Shown here piece by piece: positions 26,766 to 33,632 of a stretch of 44,731 bases of DNA (positions are counted from its first letter, which is position 1; each line of letters opens with the position of its first letter). Under the pieces are notes generated by a model. That model did not search any database. It worked only from the letters and a program-made list of their open reading frames with translations, and was not told where the DNA came from. A program made the position numbers and the translations under genes. Origin of the DNA: Nitrosomonadales bacterium (lineage in GTDB: Bacteria; Pseudomonadota; Gammaproteobacteria; Burkholderiales; Methylophilaceae); the NCBI GenBank assembly GCA_024642775.1, contig JAHEAL010000004.1, positions 3,663 to 48,393 on the forward strand. Direction: 5' to 3'.

Positions 26766-27986
26766 ATGAGTTTGATTGTACAAAAATTTGGGGGCACTTC
26801 AGTTGCAAATTCAGAGAGAATTAATGCAGTTGCTGATCGAGTAAAAAAATATGTTGATAACGGACATCAAGTTGTTGTCGTGGTATCGGCAATGTCAGGC
26901 GAAACAAACAAGCTTTTAAAACTAATCAGCGAAGTAAATTCGAAGCCAGATCCCAGGGAATCAGACGTTATCCTTTCTACTGGAGAGCAAGTAACTATTG
27001 GATTGACCGCTTTAGCCATTCAAGAACGAGGTATCAAAGCCAAAAGTTATACTGGATCTCAAGTTAAAATATTAACGGATAATGCACACTCAAAAGCTCG
27101 AATTATTAATATAGGTACCGAGAACATTCAAAAAGATTTAAATAATGGCTTTGTTCTAGTCATAGCTGGATTTCAAGGAGCTGACGAGCAGGGGAATATT
27201 ACAACACTTGGGCGAGGTGGATCGGATACAACAGCAGTTGCCATAGCAGCAGCATTAAATGCTGATGAATGCCAGATATATACTGATGTAGATGGAATTT
27301 ATACAACAGATCCAAGGGTCGTAAAAAATGCAAAAAGATTAAAATCAATTACTTTTGAGGAAATGCTGGAAATGGCCAGTTTAGGTTCAAAAGTTCTTCA
27401 ACTTCGTTCTGTAGAATTCGCAGGGAAGTATAAAGTCAACTTAAGGGTTCTTTCAAGTTTCGAAGAGGAAGGCGAGGGAACAATAATTACTTACGAGGAA
27501 GATCATAAAATGGAAGATCCAATTATATCTGGAATAGCTTTTAATCGGGATGAGGCCAAAGTTACCGTTGAGAGTATCCCAGATACTCCGGGCATAGCTT
27601 ATCAAATCTTAGGACCAATCGCTGATCAAAATATTGACGTTGATATGATTATTCAAAATATTGGTCATGACGGATTAAATGATTTTACTTTTACAGTCAA
27701 TACGACGGAGTTAAATAAAACATTAGATATTTTAGAAGCAATGAAAGAGAAGCTTGGTGCAAAAAAAATTATCGGTGACCCAAAGGTAGCGAAACTCTCT
27801 CTTGTAGGCGTTGGGATGAGATCGCATGTTGGGGTAGCCAGCAAAATGTTTAGAACGCTATCAGAAGAAGGTATTAATATTAGTACAATATCCACTAGTG
27901 AAATAAAGATTTCTATTTTAATTGAAAAAGAATCGTTAGATTCTGCAGTTCAAGCGCTTCATAAAGCATTTAATTTAGATCAATAG
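26766..27986 (+). CDS. lysC: Aspartokinase
   Basis: Aspartokinase phosphorylates aspartate, the first step to lysine, threonine, methionine and diaminopimelate. The 406-residue protein has KFGGTSVANSERI, VVVVSAMSGETNKL, LSTGEQVTIGL, TLGRGGSDTTAVAIAAAL and TDVDGIYTTDPR in the catalytic half. Two ACT domains follow (about 265-400), with VESIPDTPGIAYQIL and LVGVGMRSHVGVASKMFRTL. This length fits a class with an internal start making the beta subunit. Feedback control by lysine or threonine is expected from the family. alaS-lysC is a common pairing. Confidence 0.96.
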   Translation: MSLIVQKFGGTSVANSERINAVADRVKKYVDNGHQVVVVVSAMSGETNKLLKLISEVNSKPDPRESDVILSTGEQVTIGLTALAIQERGIKAKSYTGSQVKILTDNAHSKARIINIGTENIQKDLNNGFVLVIAGFQGADEQGNITTLGRGGSDTTAVAIAAALNADECQIYTDVDGIYTTDPRVVKNAKRLKSITFEEMLEMASLGSKVLQLRSVEFAGKYKVNLRVLSSFEEEGEGTIITYEEDHKMEDPIISGIAFNRDEAKVTVESIPDTPGIAYQILGPIADQNIDVDMIIQNIGHDGLNDFTFTVNTTELNKTLDILEAMKEKLGAKKIIGDPKVAKLSLVGVGMRSHVGVASKMFRTLSEEGINISTISTSEIKISILIEKESLDSAVQALHKAFNLDQ

Positions 27987-28035: not shown

Positions 28036-28129
28036 GGAGAGCTGGCCGAGTGGTCGAAGGCACTTCCCTGCTAAGGAAGCATACGGGTTTAAGCCTGTAT
28101 CGAGGGTTCGAATCCCTCGCTCTCCGCCA
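28036..28129 (+). tRNA. tRNA-Ser(GCT)
   Basis: The acceptor stem GGAGAGC pairs with GCTCTCC; the discriminator is G and the CCA end is encoded. The anticodon loop CTGCTAA carries GCT between TTCCC and GGAAG stems, which reads AGC/AGU serine codons. The long variable arm and GGTTCGAATCC T-arm fit a class II tRNA. It precedes the DUF1993 gene by only 15 bases. Confidence 0.97.
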
Positions 28130-28144
28130 AATTTGGAGAAAATG

Positions 28145-28654
28145 ATGAAAGAGCCAATGTACGACTTATCTGTTCCAATAATAATAAATATGCTGGAAAA
28201 TCTCTCAAATATTCTCGCCAAAACAGAAAAATTTGCAAGTAAAAGAAAAATTGATAGTGCTGTTTTTGTTGAGAGCAGATTGATTGCCGATATGTTCCCT
28301 CTTTCCAGACAAATACAAATAGGAACAGATATGGTAAGAAAAGGGATTGGAAGGCTAGCTAACAAAAAATTTCCAAATTACAAAGATAATGAAAAAACTT
28401 TAAAGCAACTTCAAAACCGAATTTTAAAAACCGTTAATTATTTAAAGAAAATTAAACCAAATGATCTTAAAGATTCGGCAACCGTAGAAATTGAATTTAA
28501 TATACGTGAAAAAAAATTCTATTTTTCAAATGGAGAAGATTATTTGAAAAGATGGATATTGCCTCATTTTTTCTTTCACATCACAACCACCTACAATATC
28601 TTAAGGATGAATGGCGTAAACTTAGGTAAATGGGACTACACTGGAAAATTTTAA
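28145..28654 (+). CDS. DUF1993 (DinB-superfamily) protein
   Basis: The family has no assigned function, although it is related to DinB/YfiT-like four-helix proteins. I take ATG 28145 as start (169 residues), because GGAG lies six bases upstream; the frame is open to a TTG at 28133. The sequence opens MYDLSVPIIINMLENL and has RLIADMFPLSRQIQIGTDM and FFFHITTTYNILRMNGVNLGK, the end expected of DUF1993. His residues in the last helix could bind metal, but I cannot be sure. It overlaps the next lipoprotein gene by one base (TAATG). Confidence 0.85.
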   Translation: MKEPMYDLSVPIIINMLENLSNILAKTEKFASKRKIDSAVFVESRLIADMFPLSRQIQIGTDMVRKGIGRLANKKFPNYKDNEKTLKQLQNRILKTVNYLKKIKPNDLKDSATVEIEFNIREKKFYFSNGEDYLKRWILPHFFFHITTTYNILRMNGVNLGKWDYTGKF

Positions 28655-29745
28655 TGAAATTTATAAACTATCTTCTGTTTATTTCTATGCTTCTTATTTC
28701 AAGTTGCTCTCAATTTGGACCTGAGTTGATGAAAGCGGGTAGGAATGACTACAATAAAGTTCTTGCACAAACCGATGATGAAGAAACTCTACTGAATCTT
28801 ATAAGACTTCGTTATGCAGATAACCCTGCCTTTTTAAAAGTAAACAGTGTGTCAACCTCCTTTAACTGGAAAGAAGGTTTTGGTATTGATGGTTCTTTAT
28901 TCAGAGGTGATGGAGTCGGAAAAGATAATATAGGAATAAGAGGGAATACTGAATACGTAGAAAAACCGACTATCACCTATTCTCCTTTATCAGGTGCAGA
29001 CTTTGTTAAAAATGTATTAACACCAATAGATCACCAAGTTATCTTATTGCTTACAAGGTCTGGATGGAGTATGGATCGTATCATGAGACTGACCATCAAT
29101 AGAATTAATAATATTAATAATGCCTCAGAGGCATCAGGCCCCACCCCAGCTCAAGCACCAGATTATAAAGAATTTATTAAACTTACAGAGACATTCAGAA
29201 AGCTACAAAAATCATCAAAAATTACTTTAGGTTATCAACTTGATGGTAACCCTGACGACCTTGCTTTGCTAATTAAAAATGATTTTAAAGAAGATGATGA
29301 CGTCAAGTCTCTTTTGAAAGAATTAAAAATTAACAGTAATAATAATATTATTCCGATTACTAATAATTTCTTTGATGGTTCGAAAACGGAAAATATACAA
29401 ATCGAAGCTAGGTCACTGGCGGGAATTTTGTTTTTCTTATCCCATGGAGTAGAAGTCCCTGTAGATGATATTTCAAACGGCAGAGTTACTGTAACAAAAG
29501 ATGGAGAAGGAAATACCTTTGATTGGAATCAGGTTTTAAATGGAATTTTTTCTGTTCATACGTCCAAAGAAGCGCCTAACCAGGCCACCGTTGCAGTTGA
29601 GTACCGAGGAAATTGGTTTTTTATTAAAGATAATGATATGCAAAGCAAATATACATTAATGTTACTGAATCAAATTTCCGCACTCCAATCTGGAAAAATA
29701 GAAAAGGCTGGTCCGATTTTAACTTTACCGGTTTCAAGTAACTAA
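28654..29745 (+). CDS. Uncharacterised lipoprotein
   Basis: This 363-residue protein starts at ATG 28654 (one base overlap, TAATG). The frame is open upstream to 28630, but this start leaves a standard signal peptide ending in the lipobox LISSC with Cys18. The mature region has RNDYNKVLAQTDDEETLLNLIRLRY-ADNPAFLKV, a pattern I recall from a widespread family of unknown proteobacterial lipoproteins, then a repeat-poor region with ADFVKNVLTPI and a late strand-rich part. No enzymatic motif is seen. It is coupled to the DUF1993 gene and followed by the tRNA-Arg pair. Confidence 0.8.
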   Translation: MKFINYLLFISMLLISSCSQFGPELMKAGRNDYNKVLAQTDDEETLLNLIRLRYADNPAFLKVNSVSTSFNWKEGFGIDGSLFRGDGVGKDNIGIRGNTEYVEKPTITYSPLSGADFVKNVLTPIDHQVILLLTRSGWSMDRIMRLTINRINNINNASEASGPTPAQAPDYKEFIKLTETFRKLQKSSKITLGYQLDGNPDDLALLIKNDFKEDDDVKSLLKELKINSNNNIIPITNNFFDGSKTENIQIEARSLAGILFFLSHGVEVPVDDISNGRVTVTKDGEGNTFDWNQVLNGIFSVHTSKEAPNQATVAVEYRGNWFFIKDNDMQSKYTLMLLNQISALQSGKIEKAGPILTLPVSSN

Positions 29746-29770: not shown

Positions 29771-29783
29771 TATAATGTCGGTG
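29771..29783 (+). promoter_or_regulatory. -10 element of the tRNA-Arg promoter
   Basis: A perfect TATAAT at 29771-29776, ten bases before the mature tRNA, followed by a GC-rich GTGACGCG start region. A start near 29783 would leave almost no leader. A weak -35-like TTAATT lies 17 bases upstream at 29748-29753. Confidence 0.6.
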
Positions 29784-29785
29784 AC

Positions 29786-29862
29786 GCGCCCGTAGCTCAG
29801 CTGGATAGAGTACTTGGCTACGAACCAAGGGGTCAGGAGTTCGAATCTCTTCGGGCGCGCCA
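29786..29862 (+). tRNA. tRNA-Arg(ACG)
   Basis: A 77-base tRNA with acceptor GCGCCCG / CGGGCGC, G discriminator and encoded CCA. The anticodon loop CTACGAA carries ACG, flanked by CTTGG/CCAAG. After deamination to inosine by TadA it should read CGU, CGC and CGA. The next tRNA is a near-identical copy. Confidence 0.97.
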
Positions 29863-29877
29863 AATTTATCTCCATCG

Positions 29878-29954
29878 GCGCCCGTAGCTCAGCTGGATAG
29901 AGTACTTGGCTTCGAACCAAGTGGTCAGGAGTTCGAATCTCTTCGGGCGCGCCA
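29878..29954 (+). tRNA. tRNA-Arg(TCG), near-copy of the neighbour
   Basis: This 77-base tRNA follows the first by 15 bases. It differs at only two positions: the wobble base (anticodon loop CTTCGAA, so TCG) and one base just after the anticodon stem (CCAAGT instead of CCAAGG). Acceptor, D- and T-arms are identical. The anticodon predicts reading of CGA and CGG. The minus-strand protease stop codon lies one base beyond its CCA end. Confidence 0.96.
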
Positions 29955-29955
29955 A

Positions 29956-30951
29956 TCAAACAACTTCAGGCTCTGCCTCAAAAAAATCAGGATCAATTAA
30001 TTCAATCATTGCTTTTGTTTTATCCATCTCAGACTTATTGCCCTCAGCTTTTAAAATTAGGTAAAGCTGTTCTAATGCATCAAGGTTACGGCTATTCAGT
30101 TGAATTGATTTATTGAAAAACAATTTTGCAAAATCTTTATTAAAATGGGTTTCTGCGAGACCCAAATAAAACCATGCATTTGTATTGTCATCTTCAGACT
30201 GGGTCCACATTTTTGCTATTTCTTTAACCTTGACCCAATTAGAGTCTTGCAAGGGAAGCACAATTTGCATAAAAAAAGGTTTTTCTTCATCAGGCAGTGC
30301 CCAAAAAGGAGGAGTGTCACTTTTAATGTCCTGAATCATAGGTGTTTTTAGGACATCATCAATCCATTCTGTTGGAAGACAATAAAAATAACCCAATCTT
30401 TTTCCGGGGCTTTTAAAGGTAGTAATGCCAATTAAATTAAAATCTAAATCAAAGAGTGCGCCTCCACTCGAGCCAACTGTAAAGCTTGCCGATGTTCGCA
30501 CAATATTCTGCTTATCAAAATCATATAATGCTTTTACCTTACCGTAAGTTGGCAATGGCACAGGATTGTCATTAGGAAATGTTAGTGTAAAAACTTTTTC
30601 TTCATACTTTACTGTGCTAGTTTTACGGACCTTAACAGGCTCTAGAGGCAAATTATCAAACTTCAAAACACATAAATCATGCTCCCAATCAGCATAAAAA
30701 CCAATCGGGCTGTAAGTGTCATGATATTTAACCACATTGACCCCGGTAGCATTTTGAAAAACATGACAATCCGTAACAACATGGTTTTTTTTAACAAGCA
30801 CTCCCGATCCAGTACCTGTAACTCCTTTTTCATAACTAACCCATAACTGAACCATGGATTTATTTAACCCAAAGAGTTCTGACTGAGCAGGATAACCAAA
30901 AGAATTTAAAGATGTTATCGTTAATATTATTAGTATTAATATGTTTTTCAT
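29956..30951 (-). CDS. Secreted trypsin-like serine protease with C-terminal helical repeat
   Basis: This 331-residue protein has a signal peptide (about 1-19) and a chymotrypsin-fold domain. The triad is complete: His63 in VVTDCHVF, Asp92 in EHDLCVLKF and Ser162 in VGSSGGALF. It lacks the PDZ domain of DegP/HtrA. Residues 225-325 are alpha-helical with a tetratricopeptide-like pattern (AWFYLGLAETHFNKDFAKLFFNKSIQL). I would call it a periplasmic protease of the S1 trypsin-like type; substrates are unknown. It ends one base from the tRNA-Arg pair and is divergent from the CDF-like gene (36 bases). Confidence 0.88.
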   Translation of the reverse strand: MKNILILIILTITSLNSFGYPAQSELFGLNKSMVQLWVSYEKGVTGTGSGVLVKKNHVVTDCHVFQNATGVNVVKYHDTYSPIGFYADWEHDLCVLKFDNLPLEPVKVRKTSTVKYEEKVFTLTFPNDNPVPLPTYGKVKALYDFDKQNIVRTSASFTVGSSGGALFDLDFNLIGITTFKSPGKRLGYFYCLPTEWIDDVLKTPMIQDIKSDTPPFWALPDEEKPFFMQIVLPLQDSNWVKVKEIAKMWTQSEDDNTNAWFYLGLAETHFNKDFAKLFFNKSIQLNSRNLDALEQLYLILKAEGNKSEMDKTKAMIELIDPDFFEAEPEVV

Positions 30952-30987
30952 CTTATTAAGATTATAGATATTGAAATAAATTCAATT

Positions 30988-31557
30988 ATGTTAAAAAAAA
31001 ATTACTCAATTCCTTTAGTTATAATTCTCAACTTTTTTTACTTCATATTTGAATACTATTTTGCTAATGAAATAAAATCAATTTCTTTATTTGCGGACAG
31101 TCTTGATTTTTTAGAAGATTCATTGACAAACCTCTTAGCTATTATTGGATTGACCTTAAGTTTTAAATACAGAAAGTTTATTGGATACATAATCTTACTC
31201 GCTTTCATTACCCCCTCGACTTACGCAGTACTCTCTGTATTAGTAAAAATTTATGAAAAAACCATACCAAACTTTCAGATAATGCTTTATTTAGCAATTG
31301 GGGCGCTGTTTATTAACTTAATTTGTACTTTTGTATTGATGGATTATAAAAATTCAAAAAATTTTCTTTTACATGCAACATTTTTATCGGCAAGGAATGA
31401 TTTAATTGGAAATCTCGCTATAATTATTGCTGCTTATACAACATACCGTACTAATAATTTTCTTCCTGATTTGATAGTTGGTATTATTATTTTAATAATC
31501 AATCTTCGTTCAACAAAAATGATTTTCCAAATGATTAAAAAAGACAATGATAATTAG
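30988..31557 (+). CDS. CDF-like membrane protein, first gene of the mod operon
   Basis: This 189-residue protein has five or six membrane helices. It resembles the transmembrane part of cation diffusion facilitator exporters: LFADSLDFLEDSLTNLLA with Asp40 and Asp44 (the D-x3-D of helix 2) and HATFLSARNDLIGNLAIIIAA in helix 5. However the helix-5 site reads S-x3-D (Ser134, Asp138) instead of the usual H-x3-D, and there is no cytoplasmic C-terminal domain. It overlaps modA by 11 bases, so it probably belongs to the molybdate operon. Whether it moves a metal is unknown. Confidence 0.65.
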   Translation: MLKKNYSIPLVIILNFFYFIFEYYFANEIKSISLFADSLDFLEDSLTNLLAIIGLTLSFKYRKFIGYIILLAFITPSTYAVLSVLVKIYEKTIPNFQIMLYLAIGALFINLICTFVLMDYKNSKNFLLHATFLSARNDLIGNLAIIIAAYTTYRTNNFLPDLIVGIIILIINLRSTKMIFQMIKKDNDN

Positions 31558-32260
31558 ATTAATAATCATCCTATTGCTAATACCAGGATTTATCAAAGCT
31601 AATGAAAGTATTAATGTTGCTTATGCCTCAAGCCTTCATCAAGCAATGAAAACCATTATCTATGGTTTTCAAAAAGAAACCAACATCTCAGTAAAATATG
31701 CGAGTGGTTCATCAGGATTGCTAGCAAAACAAATAACCCTTGGTGCACCTTTTGATATTTTTATTTCAGCAAATGATAATTGGATAAATTTTTTAAATAA
31801 AAAAATGAAATCCAATAAGATTTTTTGGGTTTCTAATGGATTGTTACTTATTCATAAAAAAGAGTCGGTGGATTTAAATCGCTTCTTAATGAATCAGAAT
31901 GAAAAGTTTTGTATAGCGGATCCTAAACAGTCTCCTTTGGGGATACATTCTCAAGAAGTATTAAATCACTACAGAATTAATATTCCAAAAAATAATTTGA
32001 TAGTAGTGAAAGATTCCGCAACACTGAAATCATATACTCTCATAGGAGAATGTGATTTCTCGATTAGCTATAGTTCTGATTTAAGCAATTATGCTGAAAA
32101 ATTTAATTACGAGTTTATTGACAACAAAACATTTACTCAAATTCAATACTTCATTACAAATTTATCTAATAGTGAGTTATCAAATAAATTCATAAATTAT
32201 CTACTTGAAAAAAACAATACTCGTGTATTGGAAAACCACGGGTTTATAATAAGAGAATGA
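31547..32260 (+). CDS. modA: Molybdate ABC transporter substrate-binding protein
   Basis: ModA binds molybdate (or tungstate) in the periplasm and hands it to ModBC. The 237-residue protein has a signal peptide and the ModA pattern NVAYASSLHQAMKTIIYGFQKETNISVKYASGSSGLLAKQI, then GAPFDIFISAND, FCIADPKQSPLGIHSQEVL and the late GECDFSISYSSD. The oxyanion-binding serines look present (ASS and GSSG). The start lies in the end of the CDF-like gene, and the stop overlaps modB by four bases. Confidence 0.9.
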   Translation: MIIRLIIILLLIPGFIKANESINVAYASSLHQAMKTIIYGFQKETNISVKYASGSSGLLAKQITLGAPFDIFISANDNWINFLNKKMKSNKIFWVSNGLLLIHKKESVDLNRFLMNQNEKFCIADPKQSPLGIHSQEVLNHYRINIPKNNLIVVKDSATLKSYTLIGECDFSISYSSDLSNYAEKFNYEFIDNKTFTQIQYFITNLSNSELSNKFINYLLEKNNTRVLENHGFIIRE

Positions 32261-32925
32261 TTTTATTAAATAATTATGAATCCGTTGTTTTACTACTCTC
32301 AATTAAAGTTGCAGTGGTATCAACTCTTATGATTATGGGTCCCGCTTTTATTACTGCGCATTTGCTGGCAACAAAAAACTTTTATGGAAAATCTTTTATT
32401 GACAGCCTAATTCACCTCCCCTTAATTCTTCCCCCAGTTGTAATTGGATTTATGCTCTTAATTTTACTTGGAAGAAATAGTATAGTTGGGTCTTTTATCA
32501 ATCAATCATTAAATTTATCCATTTCATTTACTTGGATAGCTGCCGTTGTCGCTTCATCTATTATGGCATTCCCATTATTTGTGAGGGCCATAAGACAATC
32601 AATTGAAGAAATCGATGTAAAGCTTTTAGAAGCCGCAAAAACTCTAGGAGCTTCTAGATTAAAAATATTTTTATCAATAATCCTTCCACTTTCAAAGAAA
32701 GGAATTGTTGTAGGCAGTATATTAAGCTTTGGGAGAAGTCTAGGAGAGTTTGGAGCCACGATTACGTTTGCAGGTAATATTTTTGGTGAAACACAAACTA
32801 TCCCACTCGCTATTTATTCAACATTACAAGAACCCAATAGTGAATTAGCAGCATTTCGCTTAGTTGGAATAAGTATTTTTATATCTTTTGCAGCATTAAT
32901 TATCAGCAATCAAATAACAAAATGA
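32257..32925 (+). CDS. modB: Molybdate ABC transporter permease
   Basis: ModB is the membrane channel of the molybdate importer. The 222-residue protein has about five to six helices. The ABC-coupling EAA loop is EAAKTLGASRLKIFLSIILPLSKKGI (about 128-153). The surrounding SFGRSLGEFGATITFAGNI is typical of ModB/CysT-type permeases. It overlaps modA and modC by four bases each, so subunits are made together. Confidence 0.94.
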   Translation: MILLNNYESVVLLLSIKVAVVSTLMIMGPAFITAHLLATKNFYGKSFIDSLIHLPLILPPVVIGFMLLILLGRNSIVGSFINQSLNLSISFTWIAAVVASSIMAFPLFVRAIRQSIEEIDVKLLEAAKTLGASRLKIFLSIILPLSKKGIVVGSILSFGRSLGEFGATITFAGNIFGETQTIPLAIYSTLQEPNSELAAFRLVGISIFISFAALIISNQITK

Positions 32926-33554
32926 TCAAAGCAAAATTTCTATATCAGAATCTGCAATTTGATATCAGAGCTAATATTAGTTCTAAAGAATCCATAATTG
33001 GTATTTTTGGTAATTCTGGAATAGGAAAATCAACATTCTTAAAAATAATTGCGGGAATAATTAATCCAAATAAAGGTTATATAGAAATAAACAATGAACT
33101 ACTAATTCATTCCGATAAGAATATTGTAATAGCGCCGCACAAAAGAAATATTGGTTTTGCATTTCAGGATGTAAGATTATTTCCACATTTAAATGTGGTA
33201 GATAACATTAAATTTAATCTACATGAAAAGACTAATCTGGATAACATTATCGATCTTCTTGAAATAGATAATATCCTCAAAAGAAATACTAGCTCGCTTT
33301 CAGGAGGAGAGGCTCAAAGAGTTTCTATTGCACGCGCACTGGCAAGAAATCCAAAGATCCTATTATTAGATGAGTCACTTAATGCTATTCATCTTGAACA
33401 AAGAAAACGTATGATAAAAAATATAAAAAAATTAATAATTGAGCAAGAAATATTTACAATACTTGTTAGTCATCAAATTCAGGAGGCGAAAAAATTTGTT
33501 GAATGTTCTTTTGAGCTTAAAGAAACTAAAAAAAATATAATTGAATTTGTATAG
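32922..33554 (+). CDS. modC: Molybdate ABC transporter ATPase (short ModC)
   Basis: ModC powers molybdate import. The 210-residue protein has Walker A GNSGIGKST (30-38), Q-loop Gln82, signature LSGGEAQR (126-133), and Walker B LLLDE with Asp150/Glu151. The D-loop reads SLNAIH instead of the usual SLxALD. It lacks the C-terminal molybdate-binding TOBE region of typical ModC (about 350 residues), so it cannot regulate itself that way. It ends two bases before the convergent tRNA-Lys. Confidence 0.9.
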   Translation: MIKAKFLYQNLQFDIRANISSKESIIGIFGNSGIGKSTFLKIIAGIINPNKGYIEINNELLIHSDKNIVIAPHKRNIGFAFQDVRLFPHLNVVDNIKFNLHEKTNLDNIIDLLEIDNILKRNTSSLSGGEAQRVSIARALARNPKILLLDESLNAIHLEQRKRMIKNIKKLIIEQEIFTILVSHQIQEAKKFVECSFELKETKKNIIEFV

Positions 33555-33556
33555 GA

Positions 33557-33632
33557 TGGTAGGGTGTGCGAGATTCGAACTCGCGACCAACGGATTAAAA
33601 GTCCGCTGCTCTACCAACTGAGCTAACACCCC
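33557..33632 (-). tRNA. tRNA-Lys(TTT)
   Basis: The gene on the minus strand begins GGGGTGT, pairing with ACACCCT (a G-U pair at the end), then an A discriminator and encoded CCA. The loop CTTTTAA gives anticodon TTT; the body closely resembles Escherichia coli tRNA-Lys. It reads AAA and AAG. It shares its strand with ffh, 62 bases upstream. Confidence 0.97.

Follow-up and report, generated by a model that had tools for sequence, protein, structure and literature searches.

A tandem tRNA-Arg(TCG) copy probably stands in for tRNA-Arg(CCG) in two genera of Methylophilaceae with reduced genomes

A tRNA-Arg with the anticodon I34C35G36 does not decode CGG, and a further tRNA with U34 or C34 is mandatory, according to passages of the survey by Wald and Margalit (2014; PMC4041420). 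Among the 319 bacteria of that survey, the additional tRNA was U34C35G36 in 24, C34C35G36 in 239 and both in 26. The same passages associate U34C35G36 instead of CCG with low GC content, and report an origin of TCG from ACG by anticodon mutation in two cases, so that the replacement as such is already known. The clade to which our window belongs resembles these cases in that it keeps ACG, has TCG in place of CCG and is low in GC (sampled GC 0.341 in the host genome, 0.353 and 0.366 in two single-contig relatives, G003 and G096). It differs from them, as far as the passages of that survey extend, in that the swap can be assigned to a clade inside a single family and that the tandem source gene is still adjacent and evolves in concert with its copy; the present analysis adds this instance and its concerted pattern.

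Other described systems share single features with the locus. Reduced genomes of Mollicutes lack CCG, and some have UCG, which is said to help in decoding codons that end in A or G (passages of Nucleic Acids Res. 2013, PMC3711424); in several such species ACG has been replaced by GCG, or is lost, whereas in the present case 35 of 37 genomes with TCG retain ACG and TadA is intact in the host genome. In isoacceptor anticodon shifts, related tRNA genes carry different anticodons with the same amino-acid identity, as do the two genes of the window, which are both called as arginine tRNAs; few such shifts were found in the bacterial set of the study concerned (RNA 2014, PMC3923123), which, judging from its passages, treats mainly eukaryotes and takes its bacteria from the Enterobacteriaceae. 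Birth of tRNA genes by large-scale tandem duplication is described for laboratory populations of Pseudomonas fluorescens (PMC7661048), and tandem duplication altering a bacterial tRNA gene set is common to both cases. A description of the tRNA-Arg pair in OM43 or Methylopumilus was not found in the titles, abstracts and passages of the open-access literature searched.

The window, i.e. the whole stretch of 44,731 nucleotides that was analysed, carries on its forward strand tRNA-Arg(ACG) at 29786..29862 and tRNA-Arg(TCG) at 29878..29954, each of 77 bases and separated by a spacer of 15 bp (29863..29877). Both anticodons and the strand are called by ARAGORN, and both genes match Rfam RF00005, with 63.6 and 67.7 bits compared to a gathering score of 29. 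Base-by-base comparison gives 75 of 77 identical bases; the two differences are the wobble base (index 35, position 34; A at 29820, T at 29912) and the first base past the anticodon stem (index 45, canonical position 44; G at 29830, T at 29922), exactly as an earlier note on this DNA had described. The pair is real and not a chance resemblance, because of this near-identity and because it is found again in syntenic position in other genomes. A near-identical body with an altered anticodon is what defines an isoacceptor anticodon shift by duplication, and CCG genes of equal length, among those listed, differ from the ACG gene of the window at 11–20 of 77 bases. The T44 of the TCG copy would pair with A26 and so lengthen the anticodon stem; ARAGORN draws this extra A26-U44 pair at the stem base.

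A TATAAT box (29771..29776), ending 9 bases 5' of the ACG gene and present in all six printed flanks 5' of that gene, is a likely -10 element for the pair, while a strict sigma-70 promoter scan and a terminator scan around the pair gave no matches. The 15-bp spacer appears too short to hold a promoter of its own, and spacers measure 13–33 bp in the 35 pairs compared; the two genes are presumably transcribed as one unit. Syntenic anchors are tRNA-Ser(GCT) (28036..28129, forward strand) and, on the far side of the pair, tRNA-Lys(TTT) (33557..33632, reverse strand), both called by ARAGORN, together with the aspartate kinase gene lysC (26766..27986, forward strand), from which the genus tree was made. 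Between the tRNA anchors (28133-29745 and 29956-33554) lie genes for a 173-residue protein, a lipoprotein-like protein, a DegP-like protease and mod genes; in the sister genus only a short distance separates the same anchors, which suggests that the surroundings of the tRNA pair in the window are a site of insertion.

LysC of the window is about 87% identical to that of LSUCC0717, LSUCC0665 and KB13, its nearest named relatives, and the window is therefore placed in an OM43-like genome of the Methylophilaceae. This host genome (G000; 1.15 Mb, 46 contigs, 91.6% complete) yields 33 called tRNA genes from 34 Rfam matches, of which those for arginine are ACG, TCG and TCT only. A tRNA-Arg(CCG) gene was found in this 91.6% complete assembly neither among the Rfam matches nor by ARAGORN or pattern search. 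The single-contig relatives G003 (99% complete) and G096 (100%) encode ACG, TCG, TCT and CCT, again without CCG, whereas G124, a single contig of 2.5 Mb, encodes ACG, CCG, TCT and CCT. The C34 tRNAs Arg-CCG, Gly-CCC and Leu-CAG of the four-codon boxes are present in G124 and all three absent from G000, G003 and G096. In G124 a U34 tRNA also exists for Gly and Leu, and none for Arg CGN; Gly-TCC is present in all four genomes. A draft of 1.5 Mb (G128, 98% complete) retains Arg-CCG and Leu-CAG, so that small size alone does not compel the swap. A tRNA fragment without its 5' part in G003 (L296:2450-2521), about 2.2 kb from the intact tRNA-Arg(CCT), is apparently a remnant of that gene, and the end of contig 15 of the host genome (L034) gives an Rfam match with the same score and model range. 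A genomic island is sited beside tRNA-Arg(cct) in passages of PMC10872708, and the fragment is perhaps an attachment-site remnant of this island.

The distribution of the two genes was surveyed with sequence patterns in 187 genomes of Methylophilaceae from 24 genera, comprising the window genus (g1, 31 genomes), a second reduced genus (g31, 16) and 22 others (140). The second genus is presumably the freshwater Methylopumilus type, in view of its small genomes (passages of PMC10872708). The TCG pattern, which fixes part of the D arm and could be escaped by a diverged gene, matched in 27 of 31 genomes of g1, 10 of 16 of g31 and 0 of 140 of the other genera, with named loci such as L111 left out of these counts. 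Conversely, the CCG pattern matched in 132 of the 140 other genomes: 123 of these have listed matches, 122 of which were judged by eye to have tRNA form, that of the 123rd genome (G193) was confirmed by ARAGORN on another stretch, and the last nine rest on the count alone. Two genomes were added beyond the pattern, one by ARAGORN (G050) and one whose gene is truncated where its contig stops, immediately 3' of the anticodon (G153), giving 134 of 140. Pattern and query searches, among them a CCG pattern with a variable gap that proved noisy and was run again with a fixed one, did not find CCG in the remaining six (G112, G135, G139, G162, G167 and G169); in G167, which is 99% complete, the gene may have diverged or may truly be missing.

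Within the two reduced genera the CCG pattern matched in five of 47 genomes. The match in G008 is a tRNA-Arg(CCG) gene on a 3.1-kb contig (L177, contig 122); its appearance is what we take to be Bacteroidota-like, and the contig is probably foreign and mis-binned. Those in G018 and G022 (L178, L179) are not tRNAs, and those in G099 and G103 are 34 and 32 bases long, compared to 29 for the usual genes of the family. TCG and CCG thus nearly exclude each other in Methylophilaceae. This near-complete exclusion supports the proposal of the earlier note that the TCG copy derives from the ACG gene and substitutes for a lost CCG tRNA. The search which that note had suggested, for a CCG tRNA elsewhere in the genome and for TCG in relatives, turned up no CCG in the host genome and found TCG to be common among relatives, which on sequence leaves its proposal standing.

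Both genes of the ACG plus UCG set for the CGN box are encoded in the host genome, the two single-contig relatives and 35 of the 37 TCG genomes; in the other two, TCG lies at a contig end (G107) or alone at the locus (G009). Four genomes of g1 (G004, G005, G012, G023) contain nothing that closely matches the pair, and there the locus is probably unassembled. Two genomes of g31, G102 (L455) and G108 (L460), have the order Ser-GCT, Arg-ACG, Lys-TTT with no TCG in between; pattern and query searches did not find CCG in them, and CGG codons are still used (25 of 24,545 and 21 of 27,545 codons, respectively). The CCG query had no match in a third g31 genome, G100. In G009 (L057) TCG lies between the lipoprotein and protease genes, its 5' flank is the TATAAT flank that elsewhere precedes ACG, and no ACG is present on the stretch. 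In G102 the 80 bases 3' of ACG closely match the flank 3' of TCG in G096-G098, while the corresponding flank in G108 has no counterpart among those printed. In both G102 and G009 one unit is thus missing cleanly, and the retained copy differs, ACG in the former and TCG in the latter. These single-copy loci may reflect either true loss, which in G102 and G009 would look like the outcome of recombination between the copies, or assembly collapse of a tandem repeat. All three are in drafts (G102 81%, G108 87% and G009 69% complete), whereas both copies are present in 12 of 12 genomes with a main contig of about 1.3 Mb (G001, G003, G006, G007, G015, G018, G096, G097, G098, G110, G111 and G014, the last counted because its pair lies on a 1.3-Mb contig), which leans towards collapse. 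Tandem tRNA genes may be collapsed in assemblies from metagenomes, and the locus calls for caution on this point.

We propose, with a probability of roughly 0.86, that the TCG copy arose from a tandem ACG gene and replaced a lost CCG tRNA in an ancestor of both genera, and that the two copies have since evolved in concert under selection on the wobble base. The ancestor of the two reduced, pelagic genera would have carried a tandem copy of tRNA-Arg(ACG), in which a single A-to-T change at the wobble position would have produced tRNA-Arg(UCG). A UCG tRNA reading CGA and CGG would complement ICG, which covers CGU, CGC and CGA and not CGG, and could thereby have made tRNA-Arg(CCG) dispensable. 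Its loss would have accompanied that of the C34 tRNAs Gly-CCC and Leu-CAG, likewise from four-codon boxes, while the genomes shrank and turned AT-rich, and gene conversion or recombination between the neighbours would later have homogenised them, with selection keeping the wobble base different. The order of gain and loss, the decoding range and the part of gene conversion are the inferred elements of this history. After loss of C34, a new gene would have been needed in the Arg box because ICG, its remaining tRNA, cannot read NNG; among the four-codon boxes compared, those of Gly and Leu are additionally served by a U34 tRNA, and hence only Arg required a new gene.

The decoding that this history assumes follows from wobble rules: tRNA-Arg(ACG) is expected to become ICG by the action of TadA and to read CGU, CGC and CGA, and tRNA-Arg(TCG) is expected to cover CGA and CGG, standing in for the CCG tRNA that is missing. 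MnmE is encoded at full length in four of four genomes, and an MnmE-type modification of U34 is possible. Matches to PF08003, considered for a CmoB-type modification of U34, cover only about 110 of 315 positions, at or slightly above the cut-off, in four of four genomes, and were read as another methyltransferase. Codon use was counted in mechanically derived open reading frames of at least 150 residues, in 50–104 kb per genome. CGG is rare but used in the TCG genomes, with 23 of 29,621 codons in the host (in 19 of 94 reading frames), 19 of 17,537 in G003 and 28 of 18,669 in G096.

The TCG tRNA may instead have been selected mainly for CGA, which would be poorly read by ICG and common under AT pressure, with the loss of CCG as a later by-product; we consider this doubtful but quite conceivable, and it is compatible with the rest of the proposed history. 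In its favour, the share of CGA among CGN codons is 0.41 in the host, 0.36 in G003 and 0.34 in G096, compared to 0.07, 0.10 and 0.06 in three CCG-type genomes (G128, G119 and G124), and relative to other boxes CGA stands at 1.05–1.12 in the former and 0.22–0.32 in the latter. However, GC content also differs between these two groups (0.34–0.37 versus 0.44–0.47), and GGA shifts alike despite the presence of a Gly-TCC tRNA, so that base composition alone may explain the CGA share. The comparison of CGA and CGG use that the earlier note had recommended thus bears out a higher CGA share in TCG genomes, but one that is confounded by GC content and by the GGA shift.

Concerted evolution is evident from comparison of the two copies in the 35 TCG genomes with both genes on the fetched stretch (G009 and G107, with TCG only, were left out). 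The copies differ at one position in 15 pairs, two in 17, three in two and four in one, and the wobble base differs in all 35. At T-stem positions 64-65, both copies carry the same haplotype in every pair (26 CT/CT, nine TC/TC, no mixed pair), and this haplotype has undergone four inferred changes in each copy on a protease-plus-lipoprotein marker tree of 26 rows. Some nodes of that tree are open, and gene transfer may have influenced it. Lineage-specific changes are thus shared by both copies, i.e. the ACG and TCG bodies evolve in concert. Homogenisation is incomplete: the copies differ at position 16 in two of the 35 pairs, at position 74 in two and at position 5 in one, and bases 6 and 68 differ in four and three pairs. 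Changes confined to TCG do occur, as T44 is private to this copy in 12 pairs, for which about three G-to-T changes are needed on the marker tree.

Conversion within the genome is our favoured cause of this homogenisation. Homologous recombination that moves the complete pair from strain to strain, or selection acting in parallel on the two bodies, seems rather unlikely as a substitute, albeit compatible with the remainder of the proposed history. The two bodies interact with one and the same ArgRS and EF-Tu, which speaks for parallel selection, and four haplotype changes in both copies would also be expected if the 170-bp cassette were transferred as a whole. Even with such transfer, however, the TC haplotype must have arisen in both copies at least once, and the clean absence of one unit from G102 and from G009 is as expected after recombination between copies, although assembly collapse gives the same result. 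Returning to conversion, we tentatively suggest that the two genes could well form a single unit, in which recombination homogenises the bodies over genus-level time while selection protects one wobble nucleotide in each copy.

The earlier note had taken the duplication to be recent, in which case the near-identity of the pair would simply reflect youth in the lineage of the window. The mere two differences in 77 bases agree with this, and identical tandem ACG/ACG duplicates do occur in another family, beside tRNA-Ser(GCT) (L058). However, the pair is common to two genera whose LysC proteins are only about 74% identical, with spacers of 13–33 bp and strongly diverged flanks; a recent origin would need duplication, and after it the identical A-to-T change, several times independently. 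The gene order in g31 is lysC, Ser-GCT, Arg-ACG, Arg-TCG, Lys-TTT, ffh, while in g1 genes have been inserted on both sides of the pair. In the LysC tree g1 and g31 form one clade (support 99/95), apart from the Methylotenera-type rows, and the swap is therefore old; a single origin of the pair before the split of g1 and g31 is the simplest assumption. The 13 kb of one g1-like row of this tree (L111) do not include an Arg pair, which may be located farther away, as the pair of G018 is from lysC. A recent duplication is accordingly very improbable, and the near-identity is better explained by concerted evolution.

The host genome encodes a TadA of full length (NF008113, 169.5 bits at a cut-off of 150) with HAE and PCVMC motifs, which we take to be those of TadA. 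That the TCG copy relaxes the need for TadA editing, as the earlier note had supposed, or replaces it, as in some Mollicutes with TCG and without ACG (passages of PMC3711424), has next to nothing to recommend it beyond the TCG-only locus of G009, a 69% complete draft and the one caveat here, since neither tadA nor the ACG gene is lost or degenerate in the host and ACG is kept in 35 of the 37 TCG genomes.

Outside the family, an order-wide search of 399 genomes with the TCG pattern gave matches in 79, by eye mostly not tRNAs; ARAGORN calls tRNA-Arg(TCG) at 10 of the 12 places fetched, and tRNA-like matches occur in a few other genera. In one of these (g42, family f19; 1.6–2.1 Mb; L411-L415, L425), five genomes encode TCG and give no CCG match of tRNA form, one has CCG and no TCG match (G426) and one has neither by the patterns used (G483), which makes a second, independent swap likely from the sequences. 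In G204 of this genus the TCG body clearly differs from the adjoining ACG body, and its source may be another gene. Both TCG and CCG are called by ARAGORN in G255, G268, G433 and G535, and hence the two can coexist. A 79-base tRNA-Arg(TCG) of very different sequence in G525 (L421:1245-1323), clustered with Lys, His and Asn tRNAs, possibly stems from a mobile element.

The pair thus represents a family-resolved tRNA swap during genome streamlining in which the source gene still adjoins its derivative. It accounts for the difference between Arg and the other boxes, where loss of C34 needs no new gene, by the inability of inosine to read CGG. Near-identical neighbours that are forced to differ at one base also offer a natural test of the rate of conversion between tandem genes in bacteria. 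If the two genes do form a single recombining unit, recombination that deletes one entire copy, of which G102 and G009 are possible examples with opposite outcomes, would deprive part of the CGN box of its normal reader, and the lineage would be held by a one-base difference under constant test.
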